DNA of 33,679 nt from assembly GCA_021781555.1 (NCBI GenBank), contig JAJXWQ010000038.1:1-33679 (forward strand), in the 5' to 3' direction. Below the pieces are notes generated by a model, which was given only the letters and a program-made list of their open reading frames with translations, did no database searches and was not told the origin of the DNA. This document shows, one piece after another, positions 10,855-30,091 of the stretch. This DNA comes from a bacterium. GTDB lineage: Bacteria; Cyanobacteriota; Sericytochromatia; S15B-MN24; VGJW01. Each line of letters opens with the position of its first letter. The first letter of the stretch is position 1. A program made the position numbers and the translations under genes.

Positions 10855-13800
10855 TCAGAACCGCCCTTGCAGGTTGATCTGGACGGTCGTCACCACGGGC
10901 AGCTGGCTCTCGCTCTTGCCTGCGGCGGTGGGGAACTGCAACCTGATCCCGAGCGGGAACATCACGGGGCCAGGCAGCCCCATGCCGTCGTTGGTCGCAA
11001 ATACCGAGGACAGGGTCACCCCGAGCGGCATCGATAGCAGCTTGGGGGTGATCGGCAGATGGTAGTTGAGGCCCAGGCTATCCAGGTCGTAGTTATGAGA
11101 CCACTGCCGGAAGGTGTGCTGGTACGAGACGGTGAGCGGCAGGGCCGAGATCACCGGCCACCTCCCCACGACCGGCAAGTCGCGGAACTGGACCGTCTCG
11201 AGCGACAGGGCCAGGTCATAGCCGGCCAGGGGACCCTGCTGGACCGCCGAGACTCCCTCGGCCGTATTGCCGCTGCCCTGCGTCTGGAGCTCGGACACGT
11301 TGCTCACGACATTGACCGAGTAGTCCGAGAAGAACTGCGCCACCCAGGGGGGGACCAGGCTATCGAGGTAGCGCTTGACGAAGAAGTTGAAGACACCCGG
11401 CGCAAACGCCCGCGTCACCTCGTCCGGCTGGAAGCTGCTGGTGGCGCCGTTTTGTCCCGTGGCGCCACCCTGCCCCTCGGCGAAGCTGAAGAAGTCCTGG
11501 ATCAGGGTCGACTTGCCGAGCATCGATTCGATCTGGGCTTCGGTGTAGCCGGCGGGATCGCTGTCGAACTGGTAGAGCATGCTGTCGAGCGAGCCGGTGA
11601 TGGTGGCGATGATCTTCACCTGCCGGTCCTTGGAATCCGGGCCCTGGAGGCCTTCGGTGTCGGTCACGGTGCCATCGGCAACCACGTGGAGATGGGCGCT
11701 CTTGAGGATCTGGTTTCCATCGGTCGACGCAGACTGCGCCAGAGCGGCCCAGGGATCGCCCGGGTTGGCTGCCTGGGTCGTCGGCGCCGTGAACTCCACC
11801 GCTCCGCGCTCGACCCGGAACTCGTTCGTGTAGAGCGGCGTGATGGTGCCACCCGGGACGATCGTGATGGTGCCCCGAGGGTCGGGCTCGGCAAGCGTGC
11901 CGTTGACGATGAGATTGCCCGCGATGTTGATCTGCATGAGGTTGGGCTGGTAAACCCGCACCGTCTTGCGGAGGTTGAACACCAGCTGCTGGAGATCGAC
12001 CGGCACGTCGGACTCGCCCTGGCCCTGGGGAACCGGGAGGTTGATCTGCCCGTCCGACAGCGACACCATCCCGGAAAGTGCCGGCCGGTTGGCCCGCCCG
12101 CCGATGTGCAGAGCCGCCTCGGCGGAGCCGCTGTAGAGATGATTGGCGAGGTTGACCTGCACCTTACGCGCGGTCACCTGCAGGTCGCAGCGGCCCGGTT
12201 TGAACCCGTCGAGCGTGACGTAACCAGCCGCGTCCACCTGCCCTCCGCCCAGGCGCGCGCTCGAAGCGTCGACCTTGACGATGCCATCTCCGACCAGGAC
12301 CCGGGCGTCGACGTTCGTCAGCGGCTCGTCGAGGCCCGCCACGCCGAGCGTCGCGCCCTGCAGGGCGAGGCCGCCCGCCAGTCGCGGCTGGGCTTCGGTC
12401 CCGAGCACCCGGACCCGGAGCGATCCCTGGCCGCCCTTCCACGTGACGGCCTTGCCGGTCAGCACCGACATGATGCCGAGGCTATCGCCCTCGACGTCGA
12501 GGGAAAGATCGAGGTTCGCGTCCTCGGGCCGCAGTCCGAGCGGAACCTGGCCCGACAGGACGGCCTGCTTGCCATCCTTCTCGATCGCCAGCTGTCCGAT
12601 GTCGAGGACCCCGTCCTCGAGCGTGGCGTTCGCGGTCGCCTGGTCGAAAGCGAACGCATCGATGCTGCCCTGGTTCGCGCTGGCCGAGATCTGGAGACTG
12701 GGATCGGCCAGGCTGCCAGAGACCACGATCCGGCCGCCGGCCCGGCCCGTCAAGGCGAGCTGCTGCTCGGTCAGCCACGGATCCAGCCACGAGAGATCGA
12801 GACCCTGGGCGGTGGCCACGATCCGCTGCCCGCTCCCCAGTCCACCCTGGATCCGGACGGACCCGCCGGTGCCCAGAGCCACGTCGAACTGCCCCACGTC
12901 GAGGACCGATCCCCGGATATCGCCCGCGAGCACGGCCCGAGCGATGTCATGGCCATAGGCCCTGCCGTTGACCAGCATCATCCGGGCGGCGATCGCCGGA
13001 GCGCTCGCCCTGCCCGAGATCCGGATGTCGCCGTCGAGCCGGCCATCAAGCGCCTTCCAGAACGGGTAACGCGTGATCAGGAAGATGTCGGAGCCCTGCA
13101 GCGGCGGAAGGCGGTTGGCCGGATCTTGCCAGTGCTGGTAGATGGGCCAGAGGGCCAGCGGAAGGCGAGAGCTCACCGTGACGCCCTCTCGGCCGGGTAG
13201 CTCCGCGTACAGGGTCTGGTGGCCCGCGCCCGCAGGGGTCGACTTGCCCCCCAGCCACGGGCCCTCGAGCAGCGTCCGCCACGCCACCGCATCCAGGACG
13301 GACCGGAGATCGGCGCCGACCGTGCGGACGTGCAAGTCGTACGCGGGATCCGAACCGAACCCGACGCTGCCGTCGACGTCGACCTCCGAGTCGCCGGCAA
13401 GCAGGCGTGCGCCGGTGACCGAGAGCCTTCCGTTCGCCAGCGCGAACTGTCCCGAGCAGGCCCGGAGCATGATGGCGCGTGCGGCCTTGATGCGACTGGC
13501 CATCAGGGCGCCCGACAGCCCGAACTGACCGTGCTCGTAGTCGATCTGCCCGTCGATGATGGATGCGTGGCCCGACACGGCTCCCAGCGACGGGCTCGCC
13601 AGCGCGACCAGGGGCGCGATCCGCGCCAGGTCGGCATCGCGGATGTTGACATCGAGCTTGACATCAGGGGGGGGCAGGCGGCGATCAAAGGAGATCGGAC
13701 CGATGGTTCCGTGGCCCCGGATGGCGGCTCCGGCGCTGTGGCCCACGACCCGCGCGAGGGTGATGACGCCGTCTTTGAGCCCGAAGCGTCCCGAGACGTT

Positions 13801-15597
13801 CCTCACCGGTTGACCGTAGGCGCTGCCAGCGCGCGCGGTCAGGTTGCCGGCGATCTGCCAGGTGTCGGCGTCCGCGGCGTTGCCGGACAGGTCGAAGGAG
13901 CCAGAGGCCGTTCCCGTCACGGAGACGGGGAATCCCGCCCGCCGGATCCCCGCGAGATCGATGCCGGACGCGGCCACGTGCAGGGCCAGGTCTCCGCTGC
14001 CATCCAGCCCGCCGGAAGCCGACACCCGGCCCCCGCCCGGAAGCGACAGGGCGATCGCCGGCAGGCTCACGTTGCCCCGGAAGACCCGGAACACGACTCG
14101 GCCGCTCGCAATCGCCTGGTGGCCGAACGCCGCGTGGGCAAGGCGAGCGCGGCCCCGGACATCGATGTCGCTGATGGGCCCGGAAAGCGTGACCAGGCCG
14201 TCCGCTCGCCCGGCCAGCGGCAGGGGGTGCGTCAGCAGTGGGGTCGCCAGCCCGTGGACGCCGACATGGGAAAAATGGATGTCGCCGCCAACCCGGGGGG
14301 CGGCGTCGGTCGTGAACCAGAAGGATCCCGTGGCCACGCCACCCTGAACCCCGGCCACGATGTCGTCGACGGTCACCTTGGTCCCGCGCACCAGGACCTT
14401 GGCGGTGCCGGGGCCGAGGGTCTCCTTGAGGAAGACCGCGTGGCGGACACCGGCGTCGATCGCGATCTCCGGATTCAGGGCGTTGCCGGACACGTGGACC
14501 GTGGCGTGGCCCGAACCCGCCGGCCCGAAGGTTGCGAAGGCGGGCATGACGCCGGGCAGTGTCGCCAGATCCACCGCTGGAAGGCCGATGGCGAAGTCGA
14601 GTCGTGGGCTGGTTCCGGGTGAAGCCCCGGGCGGCGGAAGGTCGACCGAGCCGCTCGCGGTGAAGGCGTTGCCGAGAACATCTCCGGCCAGGCGTTCCAC
14701 GCGTACGCGGTGGCGATCGAATCCGATCGTGCCCCGGATGTTCTCGATCGGCGATACCACGTTCTCGTAGGCGAACGATACCCCGGAAAGGAAGAGCTTG
14801 CCCGCGATCGCCAGTGCCTGCGGCCGGTGCACGTCGTAGCTGGCCGAGGCGACCAGATCGGCCGTCCCCTTCGTGATGCCGAAGGTATCGTTCGCGAGTC
14901 CGTACCCGGTCCAGGTGGGCAGGTCGATGGCCGTGGCCTGGACCTGCGCCCGCCCCCTGCCCGTAGCCAGGTCGTGGGTGCCGGTGGCCGCGAGCGCGCA
15001 GTCGCCGTCGCGGGCCTGCGCCGTGTAGGAGAGCGCATGCCCGGTCCAGGTCACATCGGCCGAGACGTCGTCGAACCGCTGCTCGAAGGGTATCTTCTGG
15101 CTAGCGGTGGCCTGGAAGTCATCCTTCCAGAAGGCGATTCCATCGTGCACGATCACGCGGAGCGGCACCCGGCTGGAGGGCGGTTGCTGCGCCTTGGCGC
15201 TCGGAAAAGCGGGAAGATCGAGGTGCCCCCGGGCATCGCGGCGCAGGCGGAGGATCGGTCCGTCCACCTCGATGACGGTGGGGCTGCCCGTCATTCGCAA
15301 GATGCCGAGGGGCGAGTAACTGGCCTTGATGACCGGAATGTAAGCCAGCAACGATGCGTGTGGCGCCGCGGAGGCGTAGACCCGGACGTCTTTGGCTTCG
15401 AGCTCGTGCCACCAGAAGCCTCCCAGCGAGCCGATGCGGACATGGAGGCCCGTCGCCTGCTGGATGGCCTTCTGGGTAGACGCGATGACCCGCCCGTAGA
15501 GCAGATCGTAGTCGTGCCAGACATAGACCAGCGCTCCCACGATCGCGAGGAAGACGATCGCAAGGACGGCGTTCAGTAGATGCTCGAGGAACTTCAA
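10855..15597 (-). CDS. Very large TamB-domain (DUF490) envelope protein
   Basis: 1580 residues from the TTG at 15597. This start puts a single membrane anchor at the very N-terminus (LEHLLNAVLAIVFLAIVGAL), followed by GLHVRIGSLGG, as is typical of TamB/AsmA-like proteins. The frame is also open to a GTG at 15690 behind GGGGGAG, which would add 31 nonconserved residues. The body is long, repetitive beta sequence with recurring Gly-x-Gly and 'NPEIAIDA'/'DPSLQISA'-like turns, as expected of a hydrophobic-groove bridge. The C-terminal third carries the TamB signature (INIAGNLIVNGTLAEPDPRG, then GGTITPLYTNEFRVERG), and the protein ends in LQGRF. Family members span the periplasm and move lipid or assist barrel assembly. 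The outer-membrane partner is not in the window. Confidence 0.88.
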   Translation of the reverse strand: MKFLEHLLNAVLAIVFLAIVGALVYVWHDYDLLYGRVIASTQKAIQQATGLHVRIGSLGGFWWHELEAKDVRVYASAAPHASLLAYIPVIKASYSPLGILRMTGSPTVIEVDGPILRLRRDARGHLDLPAFPSAKAQQPPSSRVPLRVIVHDGIAFWKDDFQATASQKIPFEQRFDDVSADVTWTGHALSYTAQARDGDCALAATGTHDLATGRGRAQVQATAIDLPTWTGYGLANDTFGITKGTADLVASASYDVHRPQALAIAGKLFLSGVSFAYENVVSPIENIRGTIGFDRHRVRVERLAGDVLGNAFTASGSVDLPPPGASPGTSPRLDFAIGLPAVDLATLPGVMPAFATFGPAGSGHATVHVSGNALNPEIAIDAGVRHAVFLKETLGPGTAKVLVRGTKVTVDDIVAGVQGGVATGSFWFTTDAAPRVGGDIHFSHVGVHGLATPLLTHPLPLAGRADGLVTLSGPISDIDVRGRARLAHAAFGHQAIASGRVVFRVFRGNVSLPAIALSLPGGGRVSASGGLDGSGDLALHVAASGIDLAGIRRAGFPVSVTGTASGSFDLSGNAADADTWQIAGNLTARAGSAYGQPVRNVSGRFGLKDGVITLARVVGHSAGAAIRGHGTIGPISFDRRLPPPDVKLDVNIRDADLARIAPLVALASPSLGAVSGHASIIDGQIDYEHGQFGLSGALMASRIKAARAIMLRACSGQFALANGRLSVTGARLLAGDSEVDVDGSVGFGSDPAYDLHVRTVGADLRSVLDAVAWRTLLEGPWLGGKSTPAGAGHQTLYAELPGREGVTVSSRLPLALWPIYQHWQDPANRLPPLQGSDIFLITRYPFWKALDGRLDGDIRISGRASAPAIAARMMLVNGRAYGHDIARAVLAGDIRGSVLDVGQFDVALGTGGSVRIQGGLGSGQRIVATAQGLDLSWLDPWLTEQQLALTGRAGGRIVVSGSLADPSLQISASANQGSIDAFAFDQATANATLEDGVLDIGQLAIEKDGKQAVLSGQVPLGLRPEDANLDLSLDVEGDSLGIMSVLTGKAVTWKGGQGSLRVRVLGTEAQPRLAGGLALQGATLGVAGLDEPLTNVDARVLVGDGIVKVDASSARLGGGQVDAAGYVTLDGFKPGRCDLQVTARKVQVNLANHLYSGSAEAALHIGGRANRPALSGMVSLSDGQINLPVPQGQGESDVPVDLQQLVFNLRKTVRVYQPNLMQINIAGNLIVNGTLAEPDPRGTITIVPGGTITPLYTNEFRVERGAVEFTAPTTQAANPGDPWAALAQSASTDGNQILKSAHLHVVADGTVTDTEGLQGPDSKDRQVKIIATITGSLDSMLYQFDSDPAGYTEAQIESMLGKSTLIQDFFSFAEGQGGATGQNGATSSFQPDEVTRAFAPGVFNFFVKRYLDSLVPPWVAQFFSDYSVNVVSNVSELQTQGSGNTAEGVSAVQQGPLAGYDLALSLETVQFRDLPVVGRWPVISALPLTVSYQHTFRQWSHNYDLDSLGLNYHLPITPKLLSMPLGVTLSSVFATNDGMGLPGPVMFPLGIRLQFPTAAGKSESQLPVVTTVQINLQGRF

Positions 15598-17861: not shown

Positions 17862-17881
17862 TCTCCAAGGAGGGCTTGCAC

Positions 17882-18682
17882 ATGCTCAGCATCAACACGG
17901 GGCCTCAGTCCCAGCGGGTCGAGGACTCGCTGTACACCTGGGAAAGTCGGATGGCCAAGGCCACCCTGGAGCTTTCCTCTGGCTCGAGCATCAACTCTGC
18001 GGCCGACAATCCCGCCGGACTCGCGGTGGAGCTGCAGCTGCTCGGCCAGGCCACGGGTGACAGCCAGTCCATCGAGAACTCCCAGGACGGGATCAGCATG
18101 CTCCAGACCGCCGACGGCGGCCTGAGTCAGACGCAGGATCTGTTGCAGCAGGCGCGCCAGCTTCAGGTGCAATCTCTGAACGGCACGCTGACCGCGTCGG
18201 ACCAGCAGGCGATCAATGATCAGCTCCAGCAGATCAACCAGCAGATCGATCAGATCTCGGGCAACACGCAGTACAACACCCGGAACCTGCTCGATGGCAC
18301 GGCCAGCAACATCAGCCTGCAGACCGGCGCCAACCCCGGTCAGACGACGACCTTGAGCCTGGCGAATGCCAGCTCTGCCGGCCTGGGCGTCAGCGGCATG
18401 ACGGCCAATTCGGCCACGACCCTGACCTCCATCGATGCGGCGATCAACCAGGTGAGTTCGCAAAGGGCCACCCTCGGCGCCAGCATCAACGGCTTGTCGG
18501 CGACGGTGAATGTCCAGCAGGCGGCGGTCATCAACATGTCCGCATCCAAGGCGGCCATCGGCGACACCGACATGGCCAGCGCCGCCTCGGCGCTGGTGCA
18601 GAGCCAGATCCAGTCCAGCTCCGGGATCGCGATGTTGACTCAGGCCAGCAACCTGAACTCCGGTCTGGTCAAGTTGCTGTAG
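17882..18682 (+). CDS. Flagellin
   Basis: 266 residues, a short flagellin made of the conserved D0/D1 parts with a small variable centre. The N-terminus (MLSINTGPQSQRVEDSL, LSSGSSINSAADNPAGLAV) and C-terminus (ASALVQSQIQSSSGIAMLTQ to the final LVKLL) are the coiled-coil halves that build the filament core. The ATG at 17882 lies 7 bases after AAGGAGGG; an in-frame TTG at 17876 is too close to that site. No flagellar chaperone, cap or export gene is adjacent, so the rest of the flagellar regulon must be elsewhere. The usual Arg of LSSGxRINSA is Ser here. Expression may be controlled by the structured leader upstream. Confidence 0.92.
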   Translation: MLSINTGPQSQRVEDSLYTWESRMAKATLELSSGSSINSAADNPAGLAVELQLLGQATGDSQSIENSQDGISMLQTADGGLSQTQDLLQQARQLQVQSLNGTLTASDQQAINDQLQQINQQIDQISGNTQYNTRNLLDGTASNISLQTGANPGQTTTLSLANASSAGLGVSGMTANSATTLTSIDAAINQVSSQRATLGASINGLSATVNVQQAAVINMSASKAAIGDTDMASAASALVQSQIQSSSGIAMLTQASNLNSGLVKLL

Positions 18683-18729
18683 GCTCCGGCCCACGACGGG
18701 TCCCTGTGCGCGGTCGCGTTGCCGCGCAA

Positions 18730-18753
18730 CCGGGGCCCGTTTGGACTCCCCGG
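18730..18753. terminator. Hairpin between flagellin and tRNA-Thr
   Basis: CCGGGG (18730-18735) pairs with CCCCGG (18748-18753) around a 12-base loop, between the convergent flagellin and tRNA genes. It could end transcription from either side. The stem is modest and lacks a T-run. Confidence 0.35.
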
Positions 18754-18784
18754 GCTCGATCGTGTCCTGGCGAGGCCGCTTCAG

Positions 18785-18856
18785 AGCCGAGGATGGGATT
18801 TGAACCCACAACCTGCTGATTACGAATCAGCTGCTCTACCGTTGAGCTACCTCGGC
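18785..18856 (-). tRNA. tRNA-Thr (anticodon CGT)
   Basis: The minus strand folds into a full cloverleaf. A 7-bp acceptor GCCGAGG/CCTCGGC, D-stem GCTC/GAGC, anticodon stem GCTGA/TCAGC with loop TTCGTAA (anticodon CGT, reading ACG), and a T-arm with TTCAAAT loop are present. The discriminator base is T. The CCA end is not encoded. Confidence 0.96.
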
Positions 18857-18966: not shown

Positions 18967-19548
18967 TCAGGTTTGCTGGAGGTCGACCCACTTCTGCACC
19001 GTCGGCGGTCTGAATGCCGCGAGGCCGGAGAGGAGGGCCTCGCGGGAATCGGCAACGACGACCATCTCGCGGAATCGCTCCTGCAGGAAGCCCTGGTCGA
19101 CCATGTGGTCGATCATGCCGGCCAGCGGCCGGTAGTAGCCCGCGACGTCGTACAGGCCGTAGGGCTTCTCGTGCAGGCCGAGCAGGCCCCAGGTCCAGAC
19201 CTCGAAGAATTCCTCGAGCGTGCCGATGCCGCCCGGCAGGGCGATGAAGGCATCGGCGTGCGCCGCCATGAGGGCCTTGCGCTCGTGCATGGTCTCGACC
19301 ACGCGCAGGTCGGTCAGGCCGGTGTGGCCTACCTCACGGTCCCAGAGGGAGCGCGGTATGACCCCCAGGGCACGCCCGCCCCCCGCGAGCACCGCGTCGG
19401 CGAGGATCCCCATGAGCCCGACCCTGCCGCCCCCGTAGACGAGCTGGATATCTCGTTCGGCCAGGTACTGTCCGAGATCCCGGGCCGCTTCGGCATAGCG
19501 GGGATCCACACCGGGGCTCGACCCGCAGAACACACAGACGCTCTTCAT
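18967..19548 (-). CDS. LOG-family (TIGR00730) nucleotide phosphoribohydrolase
   Basis: 193 residues, normal length. Rossmann-fold 'lysine decarboxylase-like' protein; characterised members release the base from cytokinin or purine nucleoside 5'-monophosphates. Motifs are [10 protein letters not shown] at the N-terminus, [10 protein letters not shown] (38-47), MHERK with Arg90 and Lys91, and the signature PGGIGTLEE (105-113). The ATG at 19548 gives the family N-terminus; the frame stays open 78 codons upstream but lacks conserved sequence. It diverges from the GNAT gene across 154 bases. TACCCT lies 6 bases before the ATG and no Shine-Dalgarno is present. Likely role is nucleotide salvage or cleanup. 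Confidence 0.92.
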
Positions 19549-19554
19549 GGCACG

Positions 19555-19702: not shown

Positions 19703-20878
19703 ATGAATGCCCAGACCCTGATCCTCCCGGACGGGCGGCAGGCGCTGATGCGCCGGGCCACCCCCGAAGATGCCGAGGGCATCTTCCTGCTCTACCAGGC
19801 GGTGTACGAGGGAACCTACACCCTTCCCATCGTCAACTTGCGTGAGGAGCGGCGGGCGGCGCTGTCCGATCCCGGCACCCTGTGGCTGGTGGACGAGATC
19901 GACGGCCGGATCGTGGGCTCGGTGATCTTCTCGGTGGATGGCGCGATCCGGTGCGGAAAGGTCTTTGCCGCAGCGGTGGTTCCCGAATGCCGGCGCGGCG
20001 AGCTCATGTTCGAGACGCTCCGGGCGGGCATCGACCACCTGCTGTACCAGGACGGCTCGGTGGATGTCATCTACGCGACGACGCGCACGCAGAGCGTGGC
20101 GCCGAGCCGCCTGCTGCGCAAGCTCGGATTCGTCAGCATGGGGATTTTCCCGAACGTCCACCGGCTCATCGATTACGAGACCCATGGCCTGATGGCCATC
20201 TTTCATCCGGCTGCCTGGGAGAAACGTTCCCGGCCGCCCGTCTTGATCCCCGAGGTCAACGGGTTCTACGAGATCGTCCGCGACACCTTCGGTCTCGAGC
20301 CCGCACAGATCGAGGCCGTCACGGATCGCCTCAAGCTCCACGTGACCAGGGGTGACGAAGCCCGCCATGAATACGAGCGGTTGCGCGCTGCCGGGGAGCT
20401 CGTCTGGTACTTCTTTCCCTTCCACCGCCCCAACTTGATGTTCTCGACGGAAAGCGGCTCGGTGCAGGCTTTCCTCAACCGCGAGGGCAAGGATGGCCAC
20501 GGCGTCGTGGTCGGCCTGAAGATCGACCGCGAGTCGGTCGCCCACCTCGAGCACGTGCTGGAGGTCGTCTTCGATACGGCCTGTACGCTGGGCATCGAGT
20601 ATCTCGAGATCCTGGTCGACGCCTACTCGCCCAAGCACCAGCGCGCAGCTCTGACGGCCGGCTATCTGCCCTGCGGCTACTTCCCCTCCTTCGAGCTCCA
20701 GCCGGATGGCCAGCGCCGGGACTACCTGATCCTGGCCAAGACGATGGCTCCGCTCAACTTCTCGAACGTGCAGATGACGCCGCGCGACCGCAAGTTCCTC
20801 GACGTTTATCTGCTCAATACCGAGTTTCGCAATCTGGTGGTGCAGATGAGCGGAACCGGCAGCCACGGCGAGGACTGA
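19703..20878 (+). CDS. Two-domain GNAT-type N-acyltransferase
   Basis: 391 residues. The first GNAT-like unit covers about 10-165: [16 protein letters not shown] at the N-terminus, [10 protein letters not shown], then [17 protein letters not shown] in the acetyl-CoA-binding strand/helix position, and [17 protein letters not shown]. The second half, about 200-365, resembles another GNAT fold ([45 protein letters not shown]). Acyl donor and acceptor cannot be read from sequence. It is the first gene of the lux-like cluster, ending 53 bases before the ligase, so it may load or cap the pathway's substrate. The ATG at 19703 is chosen because upstream sequence is noncoding in character. Confidence 0.78.
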
Positions 20879-20931
20879 ATGAGTTGCCCGCGCAACGCAG
20901 CGGCCTTGGCCTGCAGGCGGGGGAGGCTCTA

Positions 20932-22215
20932 GTGAGTTCACCGACCCTCGAGCGTGTCCTGAAGCGCGCCTGGAACGCTCCCTTCTGGCGGGAGCGGCTG
21001 GCGGCCGCGGGGTACTCGGTGGAGCTCGAGGCCGGAGCGCAGGAGGCCGTCCTGGGTCGATTGCACCCGCTGGCCAAGGACGATCTGCTGGCGAATGCCC
21101 CGCCCCGCAGCGACGCCATGCTGACCGGTCCGCTCGAGGCCGCCTACGTCTTCCGGACCGGCGGCACCACCGGAGAACCAAAGTTTTCGGTCTTCGCGTC
21201 GGCAGAGTTCCAGGCCATGGTCGGGGGCTTCGTCACGGCTTACCGGGCAGCGGGCCTCGATCCCGGCGATCGCGTAGCCAACGTGTTCACGGTCGGCAGC
21301 CTGTATGCGAGCTTCGTCTTCGTCAACCGGTGCCTCGAGGAGATCGGCGTCGTCAACCTGCCTTACACCATGAGCGCACCACCGGACCTGGTCGCGAGCC
21401 AGTGGGACCTGTTCGGACTGAGTGCCGTGATGGGGTTCCCGTCGCACCTCATGAAGGTCGTGCGGGCGATCGGGCCCGGCAGGGTCGAGAAGGTATTCTT
21501 CGCCGGCGAGCACCTGCACGACGAGGACCGCCGCATCCTGACCGAGGACTTCGGCGTCGGCCTGATCGCCTCGGGCGGTTACGGGGCTGTCGACACCGGC
21601 CTCATGGGCTTCCAGTGCCAGGCCTGCGCGGGCTCGGTGCACCATGTCCTCACCGATCACGCCCGGCTCGACATCGTCGACACCGAGACCCTGGAGCCGG
21701 TCCGTGACGGCGAGGTCGGTCAGGTGCTGGTGACGTGCCTCGATCGCCTCCTGATGCCGGTCATCCGGTACGACATCGGAGATCGCGCCCGTTGGATTCC
21801 GGGGCCGTGCCCCTGCGGTCGCCCCGAGCCACGGTTCGAGCTTCTTGGGCGTGGCGGAGACACGCTCCGCATCGGATACGCCAACGTGGCTCACGACGAG
21901 ATCGTGCGTTCGCTCGGGACCGCGGCCGCCGCCGTGCAGCTCGTCAAGGAGCGGATCGACGGCAAGGATCTTCTCCGGATCCGGTTCGAGCCGCGCTGGC
22001 CCGGTCCCGCGGGGGCCCTGACGTCCACCCCGGGCGATCCGGTACCCGTCGAACAGCTGCTGTCCCGGATCACCGAGGCCAAGCCCGATCTGGCCCGGAT
22101 GGCTGCCAGCGGCCAGATCGCTCCGATCGTCGTCGAGGCCGTCTCGCCGGGCGATCTCCCCCGGTCGCAGCTCACGGGCAAGCAGATCAAGGTGGAGGAT
22201 CGCTCGCTCCGGTAG
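20932..22215 (+). CDS. PaaK-like adenylate-forming ligase
   Basis: 427 residues from GTG 20932, which has GGGAGG 5 bases upstream; an in-frame TTG at 20884 lacks one. Family features are the P-loop-like VFRTGGTTGEPKFSVF, the FAGEHLHDEDRRIL segment, GGYGAVDTGLMGFQC in the adenylate-binding region, VIRYDIGDRARWI, then CPCGRPEPRFELLGR. Phenylacetate-CoA ligases and relatives activate a carboxylic acid as acyl-AMP and pass it to a thiol. The Cys pair in CPCG recurs in the fused ligase domain and in the LuxE-like protein. It is clearly paralogous to the C-terminal half of the fusion protein at 23539. The substrate is unknown. Confidence 0.82.
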   Translation: MSSPTLERVLKRAWNAPFWRERLAAAGYSVELEAGAQEAVLGRLHPLAKDDLLANAPPRSDAMLTGPLEAAYVFRTGGTTGEPKFSVFASAEFQAMVGGFVTAYRAAGLDPGDRVANVFTVGSLYASFVFVNRCLEEIGVVNLPYTMSAPPDLVASQWDLFGLSAVMGFPSHLMKVVRAIGPGRVEKVFFAGEHLHDEDRRILTEDFGVGLIASGGYGAVDTGLMGFQCQACAGSVHHVLTDHARLDIVDTETLEPVRDGEVGQVLVTCLDRLLMPVIRYDIGDRARWIPGPCPCGRPEPRFELLGRGGDTLRIGYANVAHDEIVRSLGTAAAAVQLVKERIDGKDLLRIRFEPRWPGPAGALTSTPGDPVPVEQLLSRITEAKPDLARMAASGQIAPIVVEAVSPGDLPRSQLTGKQIKVEDRSLR

Positions 22216-22305
22216 GGCCCCGGCGCTGGTCCGGCCACCCACCGACACGGGTTCCGGGGCGTCGCCCAACGTGGGCCAGGGTGGTCAGAGCGGCCTGCCT
22301 CGGGG

Positions 22306-22311
22306 TACGTT
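22306..22311 (+). promoter_or_regulatory. TANNNT -10-like box before the LuxE-like gene
   Basis: TACGTT ends 6 bases before the ATG at 22318, inside TCGGGGTACGTTCT (22300-22313). The copy before the GNAT gene differs at one base. No Shine-Dalgarno sequence is present, so a second, internal leaderless transcript is possible. Confidence 0.4.
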
Positions 22312-22317
22312 CTAGCC

Positions 22318-23466
22318 ATGCTCGAACGCTCCGCGACGGACCGCCTTCTTGCGCTGGTGGACGCCTTCGACGTCTCCCCCGCGGCCGAGGCGCTTTTCGG
22401 TGAGGCCATCCGGGATGCGGCGCGCTGGCACCACGAGCACAGCGCGGTGTACCGGGGGCTCTGCGAGCTGGCCGGCTTCGATCCGGCCGCCTCGGCCAGC
22501 CTGGCCGAGATCCCCTGGGTCTTCGTCAATGCCTTCAAGTTTCACGAGCTTCTGTCCGTGGCGCCCGAGGACGTTGCCCTGACGCTGACGAGCAGCGGGA
22601 CCGGCGGGCAGAAGAGCCGTATCTTCTTCGACCGGATCTCGCTCGAGCGTGCGCTTGCGATGGTCGCGCGCGTGTTTGACTCGATGGGGCTGGTGAACCG
22701 GGAGGAAGAGGTCAACTACCTGCTGTTCGCCTACGATCCCCAGGAGGCTCGCAATGTCGGGACCGCCTACACCGATGACAACCTCACGAGCTTCACCCGC
22801 AAGCGCTCGGTCTACCACGCGCTGCGCTGGGATGCCGATCGGGGCGAGTTCACGTTCCGGGTCGAAGAGGCTTACGAACGGCTGCTCGCCTTCGCGGCCG
22901 AAGGCTACCCGGTGCGGATCTTCGGCTTTCCGGCTTTCCTGCACAAGCTGGTCCGCTTCCACCGCGGCCTGGGGGCCGAGCCACTGGCGCTGGGACGGCG
23001 CAGCTTCGTGCATACGGGCGGCGGCTGGAAGAAGTCGGAGCACGAGGCCATCGACAAGGCCCAGTTGCGGGCCGAGGTCGAGGAGGCCTTCGGGATCCCG
23101 GTCGCCAACATCCGGGATGGTTACGGCCTGGTCGAGCATTCGGTCCCGTATATCGAATGCGAGCACCACCGCTTCCACGTGAGCGCCTATGCCAGGGCGA
23201 TCGTACGCGATGTCCGGACGCTCGCTCCTCTGCCCGATGGCGAGGTGGGCTTCCTCGAACTCCTGACCCCGTACATCCGCTCCATGCCGGCCCATGCGCT
23301 TCTCACCAGCGATCTGGCCGAGCTGGGCCACGGCTGCCCTTGTGGGCGCGAGGCGGCCTGGATTGCCATCATGGGCCGGGCGGGTACCCAGAAGAACAAG
23401 GGCTGTGCCATCGCGGCCGTCGAATCGCTTCTCGGTGACGAGCGCGCCGCCGGCCGCGTCCGGTGA
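22318..23466 (+). CDS. LuxE-like acyl-protein synthetase
   Basis: 382 residues, about the length of LuxE (near 370). LuxE activates a fatty acid as acyl-AMP, accepts the acyl group on a cysteine near its C-terminus and hands it to the reductase LuxC. Here the adenylation loop is LTLTSSGTGGQKSRIFFDR, followed by FVHTGGGWKKSEHEAI and DGYGLVEHSVPYIECEHH. The C-terminal GTQKNKGCAIAAVE places Cys363 almost exactly where LuxE carries its acyl-cysteine (Cys364 in Photobacterium). CPCG occurs shortly before. The gene precedes the LuxC-like fusion by 72 bases, matching a LuxE-LuxC working pair. No luciferase genes are present. Confidence 0.87.
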   Translation: MLERSATDRLLALVDAFDVSPAAEALFGEAIRDAARWHHEHSAVYRGLCELAGFDPAASASLAEIPWVFVNAFKFHELLSVAPEDVALTLTSSGTGGQKSRIFFDRISLERALAMVARVFDSMGLVNREEEVNYLLFAYDPQEARNVGTAYTDDNLTSFTRKRSVYHALRWDADRGEFTFRVEEAYERLLAFAAEGYPVRIFGFPAFLHKLVRFHRGLGAEPLALGRRSFVHTGGGWKKSEHEAIDKAQLRAEVEEAFGIPVANIRDGYGLVEHSVPYIECEHHRFHVSAYARAIVRDVRTLAPLPDGEVGFLELLTPYIRSMPAHALLTSDLAELGHGCPCGREAAWIAIMGRAGTQKNKGCAIAAVESLLGDERAAGRVR

Positions 23467-23538
23467 GGGCGGCGCCGTCGCCGCGGCGGCAGCACTGGCA
23501 TTTTTGCCCCGGCGGGGCTGACGACGAAAGAGCTTGAG

Positions 23539-26292
23539 ATGAACCGGCAGTACGTTTTTGGCGAGTTCCGCGACGGCGAACTTACCGACCCGGACGTCCG
23601 TGAGATCCTCGCCGTCGCGGGTCAAAAGGTGCCGCAGATGCGGGCAGTGCCGGTGGCAGACATCGTCGACCTGCTCGATCGGGTCTCGCGGCGGTGGGCG
23701 GATCCCGCGGATCGCTTCCGGCTCCTGGCGCAGGAGTTGTTGCCCGAGCAGACCGGCTTCTCGCCTGCCATGGTCCGACGCGACCTGGCGGGCTTTGCGA
23801 CGGCGTTGTCGCGGACCTTCTCCCGCAAGAAGATCGCGGCGGAACTCGGTACGGCCGAGGCCCTGGATGGCTGGATTCGACAGGGCCGGATCCAGCCCCC
23901 GGATCCAGGTTCGCCTGACGAGCCCGGTGCGCGGAGCGGGCGCGGTCCGCTCGTGAGGGCGCTCTCGCGCGGAGTGGTACTCCACGTGGCAGCCGGCAAC
24001 GTGGGGTCGATCGGCGCCCTGTCGCTGGCAGAGGGCCTCTTGACCAAGAACGTGAACATCCTCAAGGCAGCCAGCCGCGCCCCGGCCTTCTCCTTGCTCT
24101 TCGCGGAGTCCCTGCGGGAGACCGACGCCGTCGGGACGGTCTCGGGCTGCGTCTCGGTCCTGGTCTGGTCGGGACGGGCCGCCGCGCACCACGAGCTGTT
24201 CAAGCACCATGCCGACGCCATCGTGGTGTGGGGCGGCGAGACCGCGGTCCGGGAGTACCGAGACGGCCTGGGTCTGCAGGCGCAGCTGATCGAATGGGGG
24301 CCCAAGGTCTCGGCCGGGATCGTGGCCCGCGGGGCCGATCTGGCCGAGGCCGCCAAGGCTGCTGCGGCCGACGTCTCGATGTGGGATCAAAACGCCTGCT
24401 CGTCGGCCCAGGTGATCTATGTCGAGGGCGAGGACCGGGTCGACGAGTTCGCCCGTCGGCTGGAAGTCGAACTGGCCGCGTTTGCGGAGAGGATTCCCGT
24501 CGGCGAACTGGGCCTCCAGGAGGCGGCCGAGATCACCAAGACCCGCGAGCTGGCCAAGATCGACGTGGCGCTGGGACGAGCCACTCTGCGCCTTCCCCCC
24601 CAGACCCTCGACTGGACCTTGATCGTGGAGAAAGACCCGACCTTCAAGCTCTCGCCGCTGTTCCGCACGGTATACGTAAAGGCGGTTGCGGATCTGGCGG
24701 ATTGCGCCCGGCACCTGGCCCCTTACCGCGCTTCGCTGCAGACCATCGGGCTGGCGGCGCCGACCGATCGCCTCCTCGAGCTCGCCGATTTCCTGTGCGC
24801 GGCCGGCGCGACCCGGATCGTCGAGATGGGCGCATCGAGCGGCGGCTACCCCGGCGAGCCCCACGACGGAACCCAGGCGCTGCAGCGCCTGGTCAAGTGG
24901 GTCAACCTGGACACGCCCGAGCTGGCCTTGCGCCGGGATCCCGTCGAGTACCTCTCCCTCCGGGCCCTGCGCGATGCCGACGTCGCCCGGCTCAAGGAGG
25001 TTTACCGACGGGCGCGGCATCTGTCGGGCTTCTATCGCGATCGCCTGCCCGACCTGGGGTCCGGCGGCGCACTCGACCTGGCCGACACGGCCGGGTTCTT
25101 GTCTCGCTGGGCCGAGCTGCCGACGCTTACCAAGGCCGAGATCCAGGCGCAGGTTCCGCCGAGCGGAGATGGGCTCGTCTGCGGCGAAGAGGTCCCCATG
25201 CTGACGCTACGGAGTGGCGGTTCGAGCGGCAAGCCCGCGCTATCGCTGATCAGCGCCGCGGACTTCGAGGCGGACATGGAGGCTGGAGCCCGTGGCGCCT
25301 GGGCCGCCGGGCTGCGTCCCGGCGACCAGGTCGCCAACCTGTTCTACGCCGGCAACTTGTACGGATCCTTCATCAGCATCCAGAGCATCCTCGAGCGCGT
25401 CGGCTGCCAGACCTATCCCCTTGCGACGAACGCACCGATGGAAGATATCCTCGAGGTCCTCCAGGCCTTCGGGGTCACGGTCCTGGCGGGCCTCCCCAGC
25501 TTCCTGCAGACCGTGTTCGACGCGATCGCCAGGGAGCCCGGCAAGTACCGGGTCAAGAAGGTTTTCTACACCGGCGAGCATCTCTACAAGGCCGAGCGTG
25601 AGCGGATCCGCATGGCGCTCGGCCTCGACACGATCGCCTCGATCGGCTACGGCACGGTCGATGCGGGACCGCTGGCCTATCAGTGCGAGCACTCGGCAGG
25701 CTCGATCCATCATGTCCTTTCGGGACACGTCTGGATGGACATCCTGGATCGCCAGAGCCTGCGTCCGGTCGATCCAGGCGAGATCGGCGAGATCGTCGTC
25801 ACGAGCCTCACCCCGCGTCTGGTGCCCCTGGTGCGCTACCGGATCGGCGACCTGGGTCGCGTCGTCCTGGAGCCGTGCGCGTGCGGCCGGCGTTCGCCGC
25901 GCATCGAGCTGCTGGGCCGCGCCGACGACGGGGTGATCGTTGGAGGTCTGTTCCTGGCCTTCGCGTCCTTCCAGACCGTGGTCGAGCGTTTTGGCACCTA
26001 TGCGGCGACGCCCCAGCTCGAGCTCTCCCAGATCGACGGTCGCGACCACCTGGTGGTCCGGATCGAGAGTGCGGGCGCCACGGCGATCCGGACCCTGGCC
26101 GACGAGTCCCCGGGCGCCGTGCGTTCGACTTTGATGGCCGAGATCCCTGAGCTTCAGCGGGTCTTGTCAGCGGGCATGCTCGAGGGCTTCGACGTGGCGG
26201 CCGTGGCCCCCGGCGGCCTCCAGCGCCTGGGTCGCTCGGGCAAGATTCTCCACGTGGTCGACCGCCGGCGCTCCACCGGCCAGCTGGTGTAG
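23539..26292 (+). CDS. Fusion of LuxC-like acyl-CoA reductase and PaaK-like ligase
   Basis: 917 residues in one frame. Residues about 1-460 are an acyl-CoA reductase of the LuxC family: GVVLHVAAGNVGSIGALSL, the cofactor-region KAASRAPAF, the catalytic Cys287 in WDQNACSSAQVIYVEG, and the C-terminal EPHDGTQALQRLVKWVNLD. Residues about 480-917 are a complete adenylating ligase: LTLRSGGSSGKPALSL, FYTGEHLYKAERERIRMAL, GYGTVDAGPLAYQCEHSAG, LVRYRIGDLGRVV and CACGRRSPRIELLGR. LuxC reduces an enzyme-bound acyl group to an aldehyde with NADPH. The fused ligase could supply its own acyl-AMP or act after reduction. The long uninterrupted frame argues against an artefact. Confidence 0.87.
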   Translation: MNRQYVFGEFRDGELTDPDVREILAVAGQKVPQMRAVPVADIVDLLDRVSRRWADPADRFRLLAQELLPEQTGFSPAMVRRDLAGFATALSRTFSRKKIAAELGTAEALDGWIRQGRIQPPDPGSPDEPGARSGRGPLVRALSRGVVLHVAAGNVGSIGALSLAEGLLTKNVNILKAASRAPAFSLLFAESLRETDAVGTVSGCVSVLVWSGRAAAHHELFKHHADAIVVWGGETAVREYRDGLGLQAQLIEWGPKVSAGIVARGADLAEAAKAAAADVSMWDQNACSSAQVIYVEGEDRVDEFARRLEVELAAFAERIPVGELGLQEAAEITKTRELAKIDVALGRATLRLPPQTLDWTLIVEKDPTFKLSPLFRTVYVKAVADLADCARHLAPYRASLQTIGLAAPTDRLLELADFLCAAGATRIVEMGASSGGYPGEPHDGTQALQRLVKWVNLDTPELALRRDPVEYLSLRALRDADVARLKEVYRRARHLSGFYRDRLPDLGSGGALDLADTAGFLSRWAELPTLTKAEIQAQVPPSGDGLVCGEEVPMLTLRSGGSSGKPALSLISAADFEADMEAGARGAWAAGLRPGDQVANLFYAGNLYGSFISIQSILERVGCQTYPLATNAPMEDILEVLQAFGVTVLAGLPSFLQTVFDAIAREPGKYRVKKVFYTGEHLYKAERERIRMALGLDTIASIGYGTVDAGPLAYQCEHSAGSIHHVLSGHVWMDILDRQSLRPVDPGEIGEIVVTSLTPRLVPLVRYRIGDLGRVVLEPCACGRRSPRIELLGRADDGVIVGGLFLAFASFQTVVERFGTYAATPQLELSQIDGRDHLVVRIESAGATAIRTLADESPGAVRSTLMAEIPELQRVLSAGMLEGFDVAAVAPGGLQRLGRSGKILHVVDRRRSTGQLV

Positions 26293-26366
26293 GGGGATCC
26301 CGCGTTGCAGGGTGCGGGCCAAGAGGTCGCCACGGCCGGTTCGAATCGGATAGAGGCGAGGATCCC

Positions 26367-27719
26367 GTGGCGCCGGTAGCCGCCGCGGCGCGGCCGGATG
26401 AGCAAGAAGGACTCCGCCACAACCGGGCGTTTTTGTGGCTATGGAGCGGGCAGGCTGCCTCGCAGCTCGGCGATCGCATTCACCAGGTTGCCGTGCTCTG
26501 GTGGGCCGTGCGGCTCCACGGTCTGGCCTCGGATGCGAGCTGGGTGATGATCGCGACCACCCTCCCCCTGGTCCTCTTCTCGCCACTGACCGGGGCGCTA
26601 GCGGATCGCTTCGACCGGCGCCGGCTCATGCTCGCATGTGACCTGGGCCGGGCCGGGATCGTCGCCGGGCTCTTTTACCTGGCCGGGTCCGGCGCCTTGA
26701 ACCTGCCCTGGCTTCTGGGCCTGTCGCTGGCGCTGGCGACGCTGTCCAGCATCTTCAGCCCGGCAGCCCTGGCGATCGTGCCGGACGTCGTGAGCGAGGC
26801 AGATCTGGTGAGGGCGGGCTCGCTGCAGGAGCTGGCCATGCAGGGAGCGGGCCTGACAGGGCCTCCGCTGGGCGGTCTCCTGGTGGCGGCGATCGGAACC
26901 AAGGCTGCGTTCGGAGCCAATGCCGCCTCGTTCTTGCTCTCGGCTGCGGCCCTGTGGGTCGTGGGCCGGGTCTCGAGACCCGGCAGCCGCGCCCTGGCCG
27001 CCATCGAAGCCCGGACCGTCCCGGCCGGACCGCCCGGGAGCCTGGCCAGCGACAGTGCCCCTGGCGGCTGGGGCGAGCGACGGCTCGCCGATCTTCGCAC
27101 GGGCCTTTCGGCCGCTTTCGAGCGGCCGACGATCGGTCTGCTGCTGGCGGCCTTCGGCCTGGTCAATTTCTTCCTGGCCCCGGTCATCATCCTGCTGCCC
27201 AAGCTGGCCCGTCAGCTCGACGTGGGATCCCGGGGCCTCGGCGCCTTCGAGGGAGCCCTGGCCCTGGGCATGCTGGTCGCGTCCGGGGCGATCGCCCTGC
27301 GGCGCCCTGCGCCGCCCGTGGAAGCTGCGGAGGTGATCGACCGCAGGCAAAGACATCGAGCCGCGCTCAGCCTGGTCCTGATCGGGGGCTTCGTGCTGGC
27401 GATTGCGGCCTGGCCGGCCTTCCGAACGACCCTGATCTTCCTTGCGGCGCTCGGGGCGGCGCTCGGCACGCTGAACGTCCTGGTCGTGGCCTACTTCCAG
27501 CAAAGCGTTCCCCCCGATCGCCTGGGCCGGTTCATGGGATTGCTGACGGCAGTCATCTTTGCTTCTCAGCCGCTCGGATTCGCAGCCTCGGGACGACTTG
27601 CCGACGCTACCTCCGTGTCGACGGTATTGTTTCTGGGGGGAGGGGGGATCGTGCTCGTGGGCGTGCTGCTGCTTGCCGCCTGGCCAATCCTCTGGGGGAG
27701 GGCGTTTCGGCCGCATTGA
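26367..27719 (+). CDS. MFS exporter
   Basis: 450 residues, with about 12 predicted hydrophobic segments. Motif A of the major facilitator superfamily is visible after helix 2 (GALADRFDRRRLMLA), and ALAIVPDVV, then SLQELAMQGAGLTGPPLGG, fit the EntS/MFS_3 exporter type. A central Arg-rich loop joins the halves. The GTG at 26367 has GAGG 5 bases upstream. It starts 74 bases after the LuxC-ligase fusion in the same direction, so it is the likely exporter of the cluster's product, although general drug efflux is also possible. Confidence 0.9.
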   Translation: MAPVAAAARPDEQEGLRHNRAFLWLWSGQAASQLGDRIHQVAVLWWAVRLHGLASDASWVMIATTLPLVLFSPLTGALADRFDRRRLMLACDLGRAGIVAGLFYLAGSGALNLPWLLGLSLALATLSSIFSPAALAIVPDVVSEADLVRAGSLQELAMQGAGLTGPPLGGLLVAAIGTKAAFGANAASFLLSAAALWVVGRVSRPGSRALAAIEARTVPAGPPGSLASDSAPGGWGERRLADLRTGLSAAFERPTIGLLLAAFGLVNFFLAPVIILLPKLARQLDVGSRGLGAFEGALALGMLVASGAIALRRPAPPVEAAEVIDRRQRHRAALSLVLIGGFVLAIAAWPAFRTTLIFLAALGAALGTLNVLVVAYFQQSVPPDRLGRFMGLLTAVIFASQPLGFAASGRLADATSVSTVLFLGGGGIVLVGVLLLAAWPILWGRAFRPH

Positions 27720-27780: not shown

Positions 27781-27818
27781 TTTCACGAGGGAAGGGAACT
27801 AGGCTGCTCCCGGTTTGA

Positions 27819-27923
27819 ATGGATCGGGCCCGAGGAGTCAAACGGGGCCCGGTTGTGCGGCGTGGTGGCCGCGCGGAGGGACCCGTTCAAGGTGCGGACG
27901 ATCTAGGCACGGCGTCGTCGTGA
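27819..27923 (+). CDS. Possible 34-residue leader ORF coupled to the kinase
   Basis: An ATG frame of 34 codons starts MDRARGVKRGP and ends SS, with its TGA overlapping the GTG start of the kinase (GTGA). The kinase GTG has no Shine-Dalgarno of its own, so coupling would explain its translation. The peptide is Gly/Arg-rich without a recognised motif, and its own start also lacks a clear ribosome-binding site. A 7-bp hairpin lies within it. Confidence 0.3.
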   Translation: MDRARGVKRGPVVRRGGRAEGPVQGADDLGTASS

Positions 27924-30091
27924 AATTCTCGGGTTTGCAGGCTCGCCTGCTGGTGGTGCTCGGGATCTTCTTGCTGCTCCTGGCGGGGATCTTCGGCTGG
28001 GAGAGCAAGCGGATGTACGGCGGTGCCTGGAAACGCCAGGCGCAGGCCCTGCAGCTAGAGGCCAACCAGGGTGCGCGGCTCCTGGATTACTGGCTGGCTG
28101 AGCGCACGCGGGCACTCCAGGCCGTCGCGGCCGTGCCCTGGGGGGTGGGAGAACCCCCGGTCGATCGGTTGCATCTGCTTCGGGCCGAACGTGCACTTCC
28201 CGACGCCGTGGCGGTGGAGCTGCGTGGACGGGACGGCGCACTCGTGATGTACGGGGGGCATGCCATGGTGGCGTCGCCGCGCTTCCTCCGCTGGATCCGG
28301 CACGTCCAGGATGGCGATTTACCAACCGTGGCGAACCTCGTCACCCGTCAAGGCGACCAGATCCTCTGCGTCTATCCGATCCGGGCGGCGGGCGGGAGCC
28401 GGGGCGGGATCCTCCTGGCTTATTTCGAGGCTCGCGATCTGGCCGGTCCCTTCACCGACCTGCCGGTCGAGAACCGCCTCGTGGCGGTCCTCGATAGCCA
28501 CCACCAGTACGTGTACGCGTCGCGGAGCGAGCTTGCCGTGGGGGCGATCGCCAACCCGTCCGTGCGGCGCTTCTTGGCGGATAGAAGCCCCCCGCGAATT
28601 TTCCGCTGGGCGGGTAATTCGTGGCTGGTCGCACAGGATCCGAGCCAGCTCTCGGGCCTCGACGTCCTGGTCGGCGAGCCGGTCGACGAAGCGTTCAGCC
28701 AGGTGAGGGACACGATCGCCCACCTGTGGGGCGTGTTCGGGGCGATCTGCGTCATGGTCGGCATTCTCGGTCTCTGGGTGGACCGGGCGATCGTGCGTCC
28801 GGTCACCCGGATCACCCGCACGGCCAAGCAGGTCGCCGCCGGCGACTTGGAGGCGCGCGCCGGGCCGACGGGCGCCGGGGAGGTCGGCGATCTGGCCACG
28901 GCCTTCGACGAGATGACCCAGCAACTCGGCCAGTCGGTGCGCAACCGGGAGATCTTCTGGCAGAACGCTCCGATGGCGGTCCTCCGCGTGGACGCGAAGG
29001 GGTTGCTGGTCGAGTCCAACCCGTCCGGGCGGGCAGCGCTCGAGCGCCTGGCTCCCTGCGTGCTGGACCGGCAATGCGCGATCACGACGCTGGGTCCCCT
29101 CAAGCGGGCGATCGACGAGGCGGCACAGCTCAACGGCGCGTGGTCGGGCCGCCTCCAGATCGGAGAAGGGGACGCGGAGTCGTTCTGGGAGTGCCTGATC
29201 TACCCGGTCTCCCCGGGCCACGTCCCCTTCGTGATGGTCATCCAGCTGCTCGAGGTCACCGAGCAGGTGAAGCGGCAACGGATCCTCGAGAAGGAAGTCG
29301 AGAACAAGACCGCAGATCTGCTTGCCGCCTTGGTCGAGCTCAAGGCCCTGGATCGCGCCAAGACCGAGTTCTTGTCGCTCATCAGCCACGAGCTCAGGAC
29401 GCCGCTCAACATCATCACGGGCTATGCGGGGATGCTGTCGGAAGGGGCTTTCGAGGAGCTGACTCCCGACGGCAAGGGGGCGATCGGGCACATCCTGGGG
29501 GCCGGGGAGCGCTTGCAGGCCCTCGTGAACGATTTGCTCGACGTGGCCCGGCTCGAGGCCGGCGCGCTGGAGCTGCGCACCGAATCTCTCGACTACCTGG
29601 CGCTGTTGCGGGACGTGCTGTACGAGCGATCGAACCGCGCCGAGAGTCAGGGCATCACCATCGAGACGTCGCTCACGGAGCCGCTCCCGCCGGTCTTGGG
29701 AGATCCCCACCGCACCGCCCAGGTCCTGGAAAACCTGATCTCCAACGCCGTGAAGTTCTCGATGCGCGGCGATCGGGTGACGATCCGGATCTTTCCGGCA
29801 GGCGCGAATGTCGTGACCGAGGTCGTCGACACCGGGCCGGGCATTCCGGAGGATGCCATACCCAAGCTCTTCAGCCGCTTCTTCCAGGTCGACATGAGCG
29901 CGACGCGCCTGCATGGCGGAACCGGTCTGGGCTTGACGATCGTCAAGGGCCTGGTCGAGGCCATGGGCGGTCAGGTCGGGTGCCGGAGCAAGCCAAGCCA
30001 GGGCTCGGTATTCTGGTTCACGCTGCCTTCGGCCGGGGAGGTCGCGGCGGGGGTCGAGTGCCGGAAACCAGGCGAAGAACCGGTCGGGTGA
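27920..30091 (+). CDS. Membrane sensor histidine kinase (HAMP-PAS-HisKA-HATPase)
   Basis: 723 residues from GTG 27920; an in-frame TTG at 27815 would add 35 residues that do not look conserved. Transmembrane helix 1 (about 8-26) and helix 2 (about 265-288) enclose an extracytoplasmic sensor of about 240 residues. Then follow HAMP (about 289-337), a PAS-like domain (about 345-450), a coiled linker, HisKA with the phospho-accepting His490 in SLISHELRTPLNIITGYAG, and the ATPase domain with N-box VLENLISNAVKFS, DTGPGIP, FSRFFQVD and GGTGLGLTIVKGL. All catalytic motifs are intact. No response regulator is adjacent; the next gene is a phosphatase 37 bases on. Signal unknown. Confidence 0.94.
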   Translation: MKFSGLQARLLVVLGIFLLLLAGIFGWESKRMYGGAWKRQAQALQLEANQGARLLDYWLAERTRALQAVAAVPWGVGEPPVDRLHLLRAERALPDAVAVELRGRDGALVMYGGHAMVASPRFLRWIRHVQDGDLPTVANLVTRQGDQILCVYPIRAAGGSRGGILLAYFEARDLAGPFTDLPVENRLVAVLDSHHQYVYASRSELAVGAIANPSVRRFLADRSPPRIFRWAGNSWLVAQDPSQLSGLDVLVGEPVDEAFSQVRDTIAHLWGVFGAICVMVGILGLWVDRAIVRPVTRITRTAKQVAAGDLEARAGPTGAGEVGDLATAFDEMTQQLGQSVRNREIFWQNAPMAVLRVDAKGLLVESNPSGRAALERLAPCVLDRQCAITTLGPLKRAIDEAAQLNGAWSGRLQIGEGDAESFWECLIYPVSPGHVPFVMVIQLLEVTEQVKRQRILEKEVENKTADLLAALVELKALDRAKTEFLSLISHELRTPLNIITGYAGMLSEGAFEELTPDGKGAIGHILGAGERLQALVNDLLDVARLEAGALELRTESLDYLALLRDVLYERSNRAESQGITIETSLTEPLPPVLGDPHRTAQVLENLISNAVKFSMRGDRVTIRIFPAGANVVTEVVDTGPGIPEDAIPKLFSRFFQVDMSATRLHGGTGLGLTIVKGLVEAMGGQVGCRSKPSQGSVFWFTLPSAGEVAAGVECRKPGEEPVG

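Follow-up and report, generated by a model that had tools for sequence, protein, structure and literature searches.

The window analyzed here (33,679 nucleotides from a Sericytochromatia bacterium; contig JAJXWQ010000038.1 of assembly GCA_021781555.1) carries five plus-strand genes at 19703-27719, encoding, in order, a tandem-GNAT acyltransferase (hereafter GNAT), a PaaK-like ligase (LigA), a LuxE-like synthetase, a LuxC-like reductase with a further PaaK-like ligase fused to it (LuxC::LigB), and an MFS exporter. These genes probably (roughly 60%) form a dedicated small-molecule biosynthesis cluster that operates without non-ribosomal peptide synthetases (NRPS), polyketide synthases (PKS), or carrier proteins and includes a LuxE/LuxC step from carboxylate to aldehyde. 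The grouping is not due to chance, as linkage of these families recurs across many phyla (at least six) and on plasmids, which makes this a real and shared pathway. The set persists while gene order varies, which points to shared function rather than a frozen neighborhood. The host genome is 3.8 Mb and 98.7% complete, and the window is its contig C50. All five same-strand open reading frames (ORFs) called in an initial annotation of this DNA were present, and their families were assigned by Pfam:

19703-20878, plus strand: tandem-GNAT acyltransferase, first gene, 391 aa, ATG start; Pfam Acetyltransf_1
20884-22215, plus strand: LigA, stand-alone PaaK-like AMP-forming acyl ligase, 443 aa, TTG start (uncertain)
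22318-23466, plus strand: LuxE-like acyl-protein synthetase, 382 aa; acyl-accepting Cys363 at 23404-23406
23539-26292, plus strand: LuxC::LigB fusion, acyl-thioester reductase plus PaaK-like ligase, 917 aa; Pfam and profile matches
23644-24900, plus strand: LuxC reductase domain of the fusion; nucleophile Cys287 at 24397-24399
24943-26268, plus strand: LigB ligase domain of the fusion; P-loop RSGGSSGK, RIGD, C-terminal Lys902
26367-27719, plus strand: MFS exporter (H+ antiporter / EntS-like family), 450 aa; MFS_1, MFS_3

Gene Content and Catalytic Residues

The acid-reduction pair proposed in the initial annotation was intact, with both catalytic cysteines kept. LuxE matched the Pfam LuxE family (7.8e-46; 157.1 bits against a curated cut-off of 24.9), and LuxC matched Pfam LuxC over aa 36-454 (2.7e-86; 290.4 bits against a curated cut-off of 21). 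Profiles of LuxE and of LuxC::LigB matched chain E (2.1e-41) and chain A (5.5e-59), respectively, of the solved LuxC-LuxE entry 7xc6, in alignments covering the whole length of LuxE and LuxC, catalytic cysteines included. The acyl-accepting cysteine of LuxE (C363) was kept across the 10 lineages aligned, as was the LuxC nucleophile (C287) across the lineages aligned. Positions near the catalytic sites were relaxed in places, the LuxC GNV motif reading AN in Salmonella and GNA in Streptomyces. The host genome contained one LuxC and one LuxE.

A search of the complete 3.8 Mb genome for luciferase (PF00296) gave no match, although the same search succeeded in 10 of 14 control genomes; this bears out the earlier statement that luxA and luxB are missing. 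The luxD and carrier-protein genes that it also listed as missing were not recognized in the annotated protein set surrounding the cluster, a reading that applies to these surroundings, as no genome-wide search was made. The pair scored far below the LuxC and LuxE equivalogs NF052251 (162.2 against 750 bits) and NF052244 (119.3 against 550 bits). Given scores below the equivalog cut-offs and the lack of a luciferase in the genome, the cluster is not a lux bioluminescence operon. Carboxylic acid reductases (CARs) combine adenylation, carrier, and SDR-type reductase domains within one protein; the fusion is built differently, with a LuxC-type reductase at its N-terminus and no carrier domain found.

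Both ligases kept the AMP-ligase motifs. LigA matched Pfam AMP-binding (3.4e-11) and was conserved in eight Sericytochromatia; its best NCBIfam matches were DVU1553_fam_AMP and PaaK, all below cut-off. The LigB part of the fusion also matched AMP-binding (3.7e-9), was PaaK-like at aa ~469-910, and by profile matched PaaK structures (5.5e-58; 4r1l), and its P-loop, GD, and C-terminal Lys were retained in the lineages aligned. Against the PaaK equivalogs TIGR02155 and NF041878 (cut-offs 646.3 and 700 bits), LigA reached 52.9 and 73.4 bits and LigB 101.4 and 136.1 bits; consequently, we describe both as PaaK-like rather than as PaaK.

The first gene had been annotated as a GNAT acyltransferase, and we keep the family (Acetyltransf_1, 2.6e-5, aa 47-143) and amend the description to a tandem-GNAT protein. 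The AlphaFold model (mean pLDDT 76.5, pTM 0.67) contains two successive GNAT-like alpha/beta units, and full-length Foldseek alignments include the tandem GNATs 9en3, 9emp, and 7q3a. Two consecutive GNAT folds are thus predicted in one chain at a low whole-chain TM of 0.33-0.39, so domain packing may differ. The canonical CoA-binding motif R/Q-x-x-G-x-G/A was not found; in the aligned rows it takes the form R-x-x-[E/D/N/A]-[L/I/M]-x, with the first Arg invariant and Gly replaced by E/D/N/A and others. No named NCBIfam family or equivalog was returned by the NCBIfam profile search. Orthologues were present in at least five phyla, and the viral contigs searched held no relative. The mechanical ORF of this gene opens further upstream, at 19547.

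The last gene matched Pfam MFS_1 (1.3e-30) and MFS_3, with TIGR00900 and EntS below cut-off. Intergenic gaps across the five genes were 5, 102, 72, and 74 nt, and all five showed a codon-like G+C pattern (0.82-0.87 at the third position); the short gaps and the coding-type pattern are compatible with a single operon. A promoter and terminator scan gave no excess above chance.

Linkage Across the Class, Other Phyla, and Plasmids

The order GNAT-LigA-LuxE-LuxC::LigB-MFS was kept in six genomes, namely the host (G000), G001 (across two contigs), G002, G006, G007, and G009. The initial annotation had suggested searching for the five families as neighbors in this order; they were so arranged in these six, and the order was confined to Sericytochromatia. 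The families themselves were linked in many phyla, contrary to the outcome it had named as refuting, in which they would not be neighbors in related genomes. The fusion or part of it was matched in 10 of 98 relatives besides the host genome, all of the same class, and the named records matching it include metagenome-assembled genomes (MAGs) labeled 'Candidatus Sericytochromatia bacterium' and 'Cyanobacteria bacterium'. A full-length GNAT was encoded in 8 of the 18 genomes of the class, and the fusion was present in all eight.

A genome-contig scan found the fusion in MAGs of Armatimonadota, Wallbacteria, Elusimicrobiota, Muiribacteriota, and Deltaproteobacteria. The GNAT-LuxE-LuxC::LigB core occurred together in the first four and in one deltaproteobacterium; a Nitrospiria match held LuxE-LuxC in unfused form only. 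Elusimicrobiota carried the GNAT in 19 of 150 genomes, clustered with LuxE in 18 of the 19 and mostly directly upstream of LuxE-LuxC::LigB; in genome G193, LuxE was ~16 kb from the GNAT. The GNAT gene was found in 23 of 149 Armatimonadota genomes, with LuxE beside it in 15, and in 1 of 195 genomes of the deltaproteobacterial carrier's phylum, an occurrence that suggests sporadic transfer. The five-family set was re-ordered in Elusimicrobiota G153 (LigA-X-LuxE-LuxC::LigB-MFS-GNAT) and in Armatimonadota G264 (MFS-GNAT-LuxE-LuxC::LigB-LigA). X in G153, encoded between LigA and LuxE (locus L094, 2623-4176), is a 517-aa protein that matched neither Pfam nor NCBIfam. The conserved core is GNAT-LuxE-LuxC::LigB, with LigA and the MFS gene variably present or relocated. 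Tree distances of GNAT, LuxE, LuxC, and LigB were correlated (r 0.905-0.945).

The plasmid copies are the most telling result. Streptomyces plasmids showed the annotated order LigA-MFS-GNAT-LuxE-LuxC::LigB. Specifically, in Streptomyces sp. NBC_00158 the overlapping or abutting genes are annotated as phenylacetate-CoA ligase family protein, MFS transporter, GNAT, acyl-protein synthase, and acyl-CoA reductase, the last being an 853-aa LuxC::ligase fusion, and the arrangement is shared with S. cattleyicolor pSCAT and Streptomyces BHT-5-2. On two IncF plasmids of Salmonella enterica, the set comprised an MdfA-like MFS fragment, LuxE, LuxC::ligase, and a ligase, surrounded by recombinase and toxin-antitoxin genes; a GNAT was annotated in one of the two. 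The fragment before LuxE is 121 aa long (L097, 8149-8514; L113, 6149-6514), and the exporter of these plasmids looks truncated. The Salmonella version was not found in the E. coli genomes searched.

Two further plasmids carried LuxE with an unfused LuxC. On a Streptomyces europaeiscabiei plasmid (L099, NZ_CP109155.1, 886-9344), the pair directly follows genes for a DUF692/MNIO iron enzyme and for an MBL-fold hydrolase, and a YcaO protein is encoded close by; this set looks like a ribosomal-peptide pathway in which the peptide carboxyl end may be reduced. On a Chloroflexota plasmid (L101, 7986-10387), LuxE-LuxC lies by a RecD-like helicase, a DUF4062 protein is encoded nearby, and no further pathway genes accompany the pair.

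Exporters adjoining the core vary, with MFS in the window and HlyD plus AcrB-type proteins in Muiribacteriota. Linked MFS homologues were found in Sericytochromatia, Wallbacteria, Elusimicrobiota, Armatimonadota, and Streptomyces. In Elusimicrobiota, the neighbors are NHL/TPR protein, lipoprotein, and succinate dehydrogenase genes, which we rejected as cluster parts, as they are conserved chromosomal surroundings inside this phylum only. A lipoprotein-like protein of 241-346 aa (L043, 6838-7563, and relatives) is encoded divergently from or near the GNAT at 15 Elusimicrobiota loci; the one member scanned had no Pfam match. In the window, the cluster is bordered upstream by a LOG-family gene that is transcribed divergently from the minus strand (18967-19551), and this gene and the flagellin gene further upstream (17876-18682) are kept beside the cluster in G001 (same genus) only. 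The stretch 17876-18856 holds, with the flagellin gene, a minus-strand tRNA-Thr(CGT). Elsewhere in the window (11059-15579), three long plus-strand ORFs (11059, 13219, and 14710), all without a Pfam match, lie opposite a 1611-aa minus-strand ORF. One further gene lies just 3' of the cluster:

27815-30091, plus strand: histidine kinase, HAMP-HisKA-HATPase_c; cluster membership doubtful

Proposed Route and Alternative Explanations

In the route we propose, LigA and LigB would activate carboxylic acids with ATP to acyl-AMP or acyl-CoA, and the tandem GNAT would use an activated acyl group to N-acylate an amine, plausibly that of an amino acid. LuxE would adenylate a carboxylate, hold it as a thioester on Cys363, and hand it to Cys287 of LuxC, which would reduce the bound acyl group to an aldehyde in an NAD(P)H-dependent reaction; the MFS protein would export the product. 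We infer the substrates, the order of the steps, and the feeding of LuxC by LigB from the protein families. A tandem GNAT acylating an amino acid has already been solved, the histidine acetyltransferase 9emp with N-myristoyl histidine, and the CoA ligase and N-acyltransferase pair PclA/PenDE (PMC12568646) is a precedent for the pairing; plasmid-borne livipeptin is a further precedent. The activation, reduction, and export route of the initial annotation survives as a co-inherited unit with a reduction pair, two ligases, a GNAT, and an exporter, its chemistry staying at the level of a proposal; the condensation it also entertained found no counterpart, as no condensing enzyme was recognized. 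Our preferred guess for the product is an exported N-acyl aminoaldehyde, although taken by itself this guess is more likely wrong than right.

Several observations weigh against this reading. Genomes G008 and G010 hold cluster parts in two pieces, and G005 has LuxE-LuxC::LigB only, with a merely distantly related GNAT beside it. Shared species history explains part of the tree-distance correlation. The Salmonella GNAT is a superfamily relative only. Since the usual CoA-binding motif is degenerate, the GNAT may use another donor or none. Eight of the 23 Armatimonadota genomes with the GNAT have no LuxE anywhere in the genome; the GNAT is consequently not bound to the reductase, and these genomes show that it is able to have another partner. 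At three such Armatimonadota loci (L126, 4018-6262; L128, 9139-10933; L130, 9372-11130), the GNAT gene overlaps a downstream gene by 8 nt; the protein of the latter, without a Pfam match, is a candidate second partner of the tandem-GNAT family.

The cluster could instead supply long-chain aldehydes to the formation of lipids, waxes, or hydrocarbons, much as tetradecanal is the product of LuxCDE. The closest characterized LuxE and LuxC relatives do act on long-chain fatty acids, although the equivalog scores lie far below cut-off, and the GNAT, two PaaK-like ligases, and exporter would be left unexplained. Aldehyde decarbonylase (PF11266) was absent from the genome, and we rejected an alkane route on this ground; wax synthase (PF03007) also had no match in the genome, with a control that was equally silent. 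We regard this explanation as improbable.

A kinship with the leupeptin-type pathway of Gammaproteobacteria is suggested by leupABCD, four genes in 5.8 kb with a transporter that yield peptide aldehydes (PMC8283571, PMC11480411), and by the Salmonella version, whose four genes likewise occupy 5.8 kb and adjoin an MFS fragment. The similarity in size is possibly chance. Primer sites published for leupA and leupB were absent from the Salmonella cluster at ≤3 mismatches, and leupA starts with MKIAIHN (from the primer), unlike Salmonella LuxE. We give such a relationship little credence.

A LuxE/LuxC-made aldehyde or acyl group might also decorate a sugar on flagellin or another surface glycan. 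This idea draws on the flagellin gene just upstream and on the presence of LuxE and LuxC in the islands for flagellin glycosylation in Aeromonas (PMC7874193), Enterobacteriaceae (PMC4875605), and Dickeya (PMC7575072), which pair LuxC with acyl carrier protein (ACP) and FabG genes. Among the Pfam-annotated neighbors of our cluster, we recognized neither glycosyltransferase nor nucleotide-sugar, ACP, or FabG genes, flagellin was absent beside it outside the genus, and the Streptomyces plasmid copies, with their non-flagellated carriers, also count against such a role. As flagellin adjacency is not conserved across carriers, the link was rejected beyond genus level, and modification of flagellin is quite unlikely to be the function.

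Least likely by our assessment, at long odds, is a cell-cell signal system in which the adjacent histidine kinase would respond to the GNAT/LuxE/LuxC product as an autoinducer: the cluster is followed by a kinase in the window, G001, G009 (with an 8-nt overlap with the MFS gene), and Wallbacteria L041 (~30 nt after the GNAT), but none was found beside it in G002, G006, and G007, and the sensor domains differ (HAMP, GAF, PAS plus receiver), so these are probably different genes; with adjacency inconsistent among lineages, the kinase was rejected as a pathway partner.

The conservation of this set in at least six phyla, with changes of gene order and with some copies on plasmids, implies a common, seemingly undescribed aldehyde natural product or family. 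It is possible, though rather doubtful, that the set defines a new, partly plasmid-borne class of biosynthetic gene cluster (tandem GNAT, LuxE, LuxC::PaaK-ligase fusion) that needs neither NRPS nor carrier proteins to make N-acyl aminoaldehydes, with carriers ranging from Candidatus Sericytochromatia and Elusimicrobiota to plasmids of Streptomyces and Salmonella. If so, it would have been overlooked because it has no signature recognized as biosynthetic. The annotated Streptomyces copies make the pathway directly testable, and the LuxC::ligase fusion can serve as a genome-mining marker.

Comparison with Known Systems

Light emission is, to our knowledge, nearly the only setting in which LuxE and LuxC have been described. 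The initial annotation knew of no described pathway with this gene set; the combination does look undescribed, and our literature search for it returned only flagellin-island, lux, and unrelated papers, though LuxE and LuxC outside lux operons are already on record in the flagellin glycosylation islands. The LuxC-LuxE-LuxD fatty acid reductase of luminous bacteria (7xc6) shares with our cluster the LuxE acyl-Cys synthetase, the LuxC thioester reductase, and both cysteines. Our LuxC, however, forms a fusion with a PaaK-like ligase, neither luciferase nor luxD lies beside it, a GNAT, a second ligase, and an MFS gene are added, and its LuxE and LuxC score ~120-160 bits against NCBIfam lux cut-offs of 550-750. 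In the flagellin glycosylation islands (Aeromonas group II, Enterobacteriaceae, and Dickeya), LuxE likewise adjoins LuxC and an AMP ligase with no lux operon, whereas ACP, FabG, sugar, and glycosyltransferase genes are carried there and, as far as the accessible text of these reports extends, neither the fusion nor a tandem GNAT is reported. The mel2 locus of Mycobacterium marinum is a lux-like set with a LuxC-like reductase (PMC1793995); unlike our cluster, it has a luciferase-like MelF and no clear LuxE, and the available portion of that source mentions no GNAT or PaaK-like ligase. Compared by description and primers, leupABCD is a similarly small four-gene cluster with a transporter that leads to aldehydes, but the start of leupA differs from the LuxE relatives of our cluster. 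The livipeptin cluster of the Streptomyces lividans plasmid SLP3 is, like some of our copies, plasmid-borne, with a predicted N-acyltransferase and an N-acylated peptide aldehyde as its product (PMC10548850); it differs in using a C-minus NRPS and an L/F-transferase in place of LuxE and LuxC.

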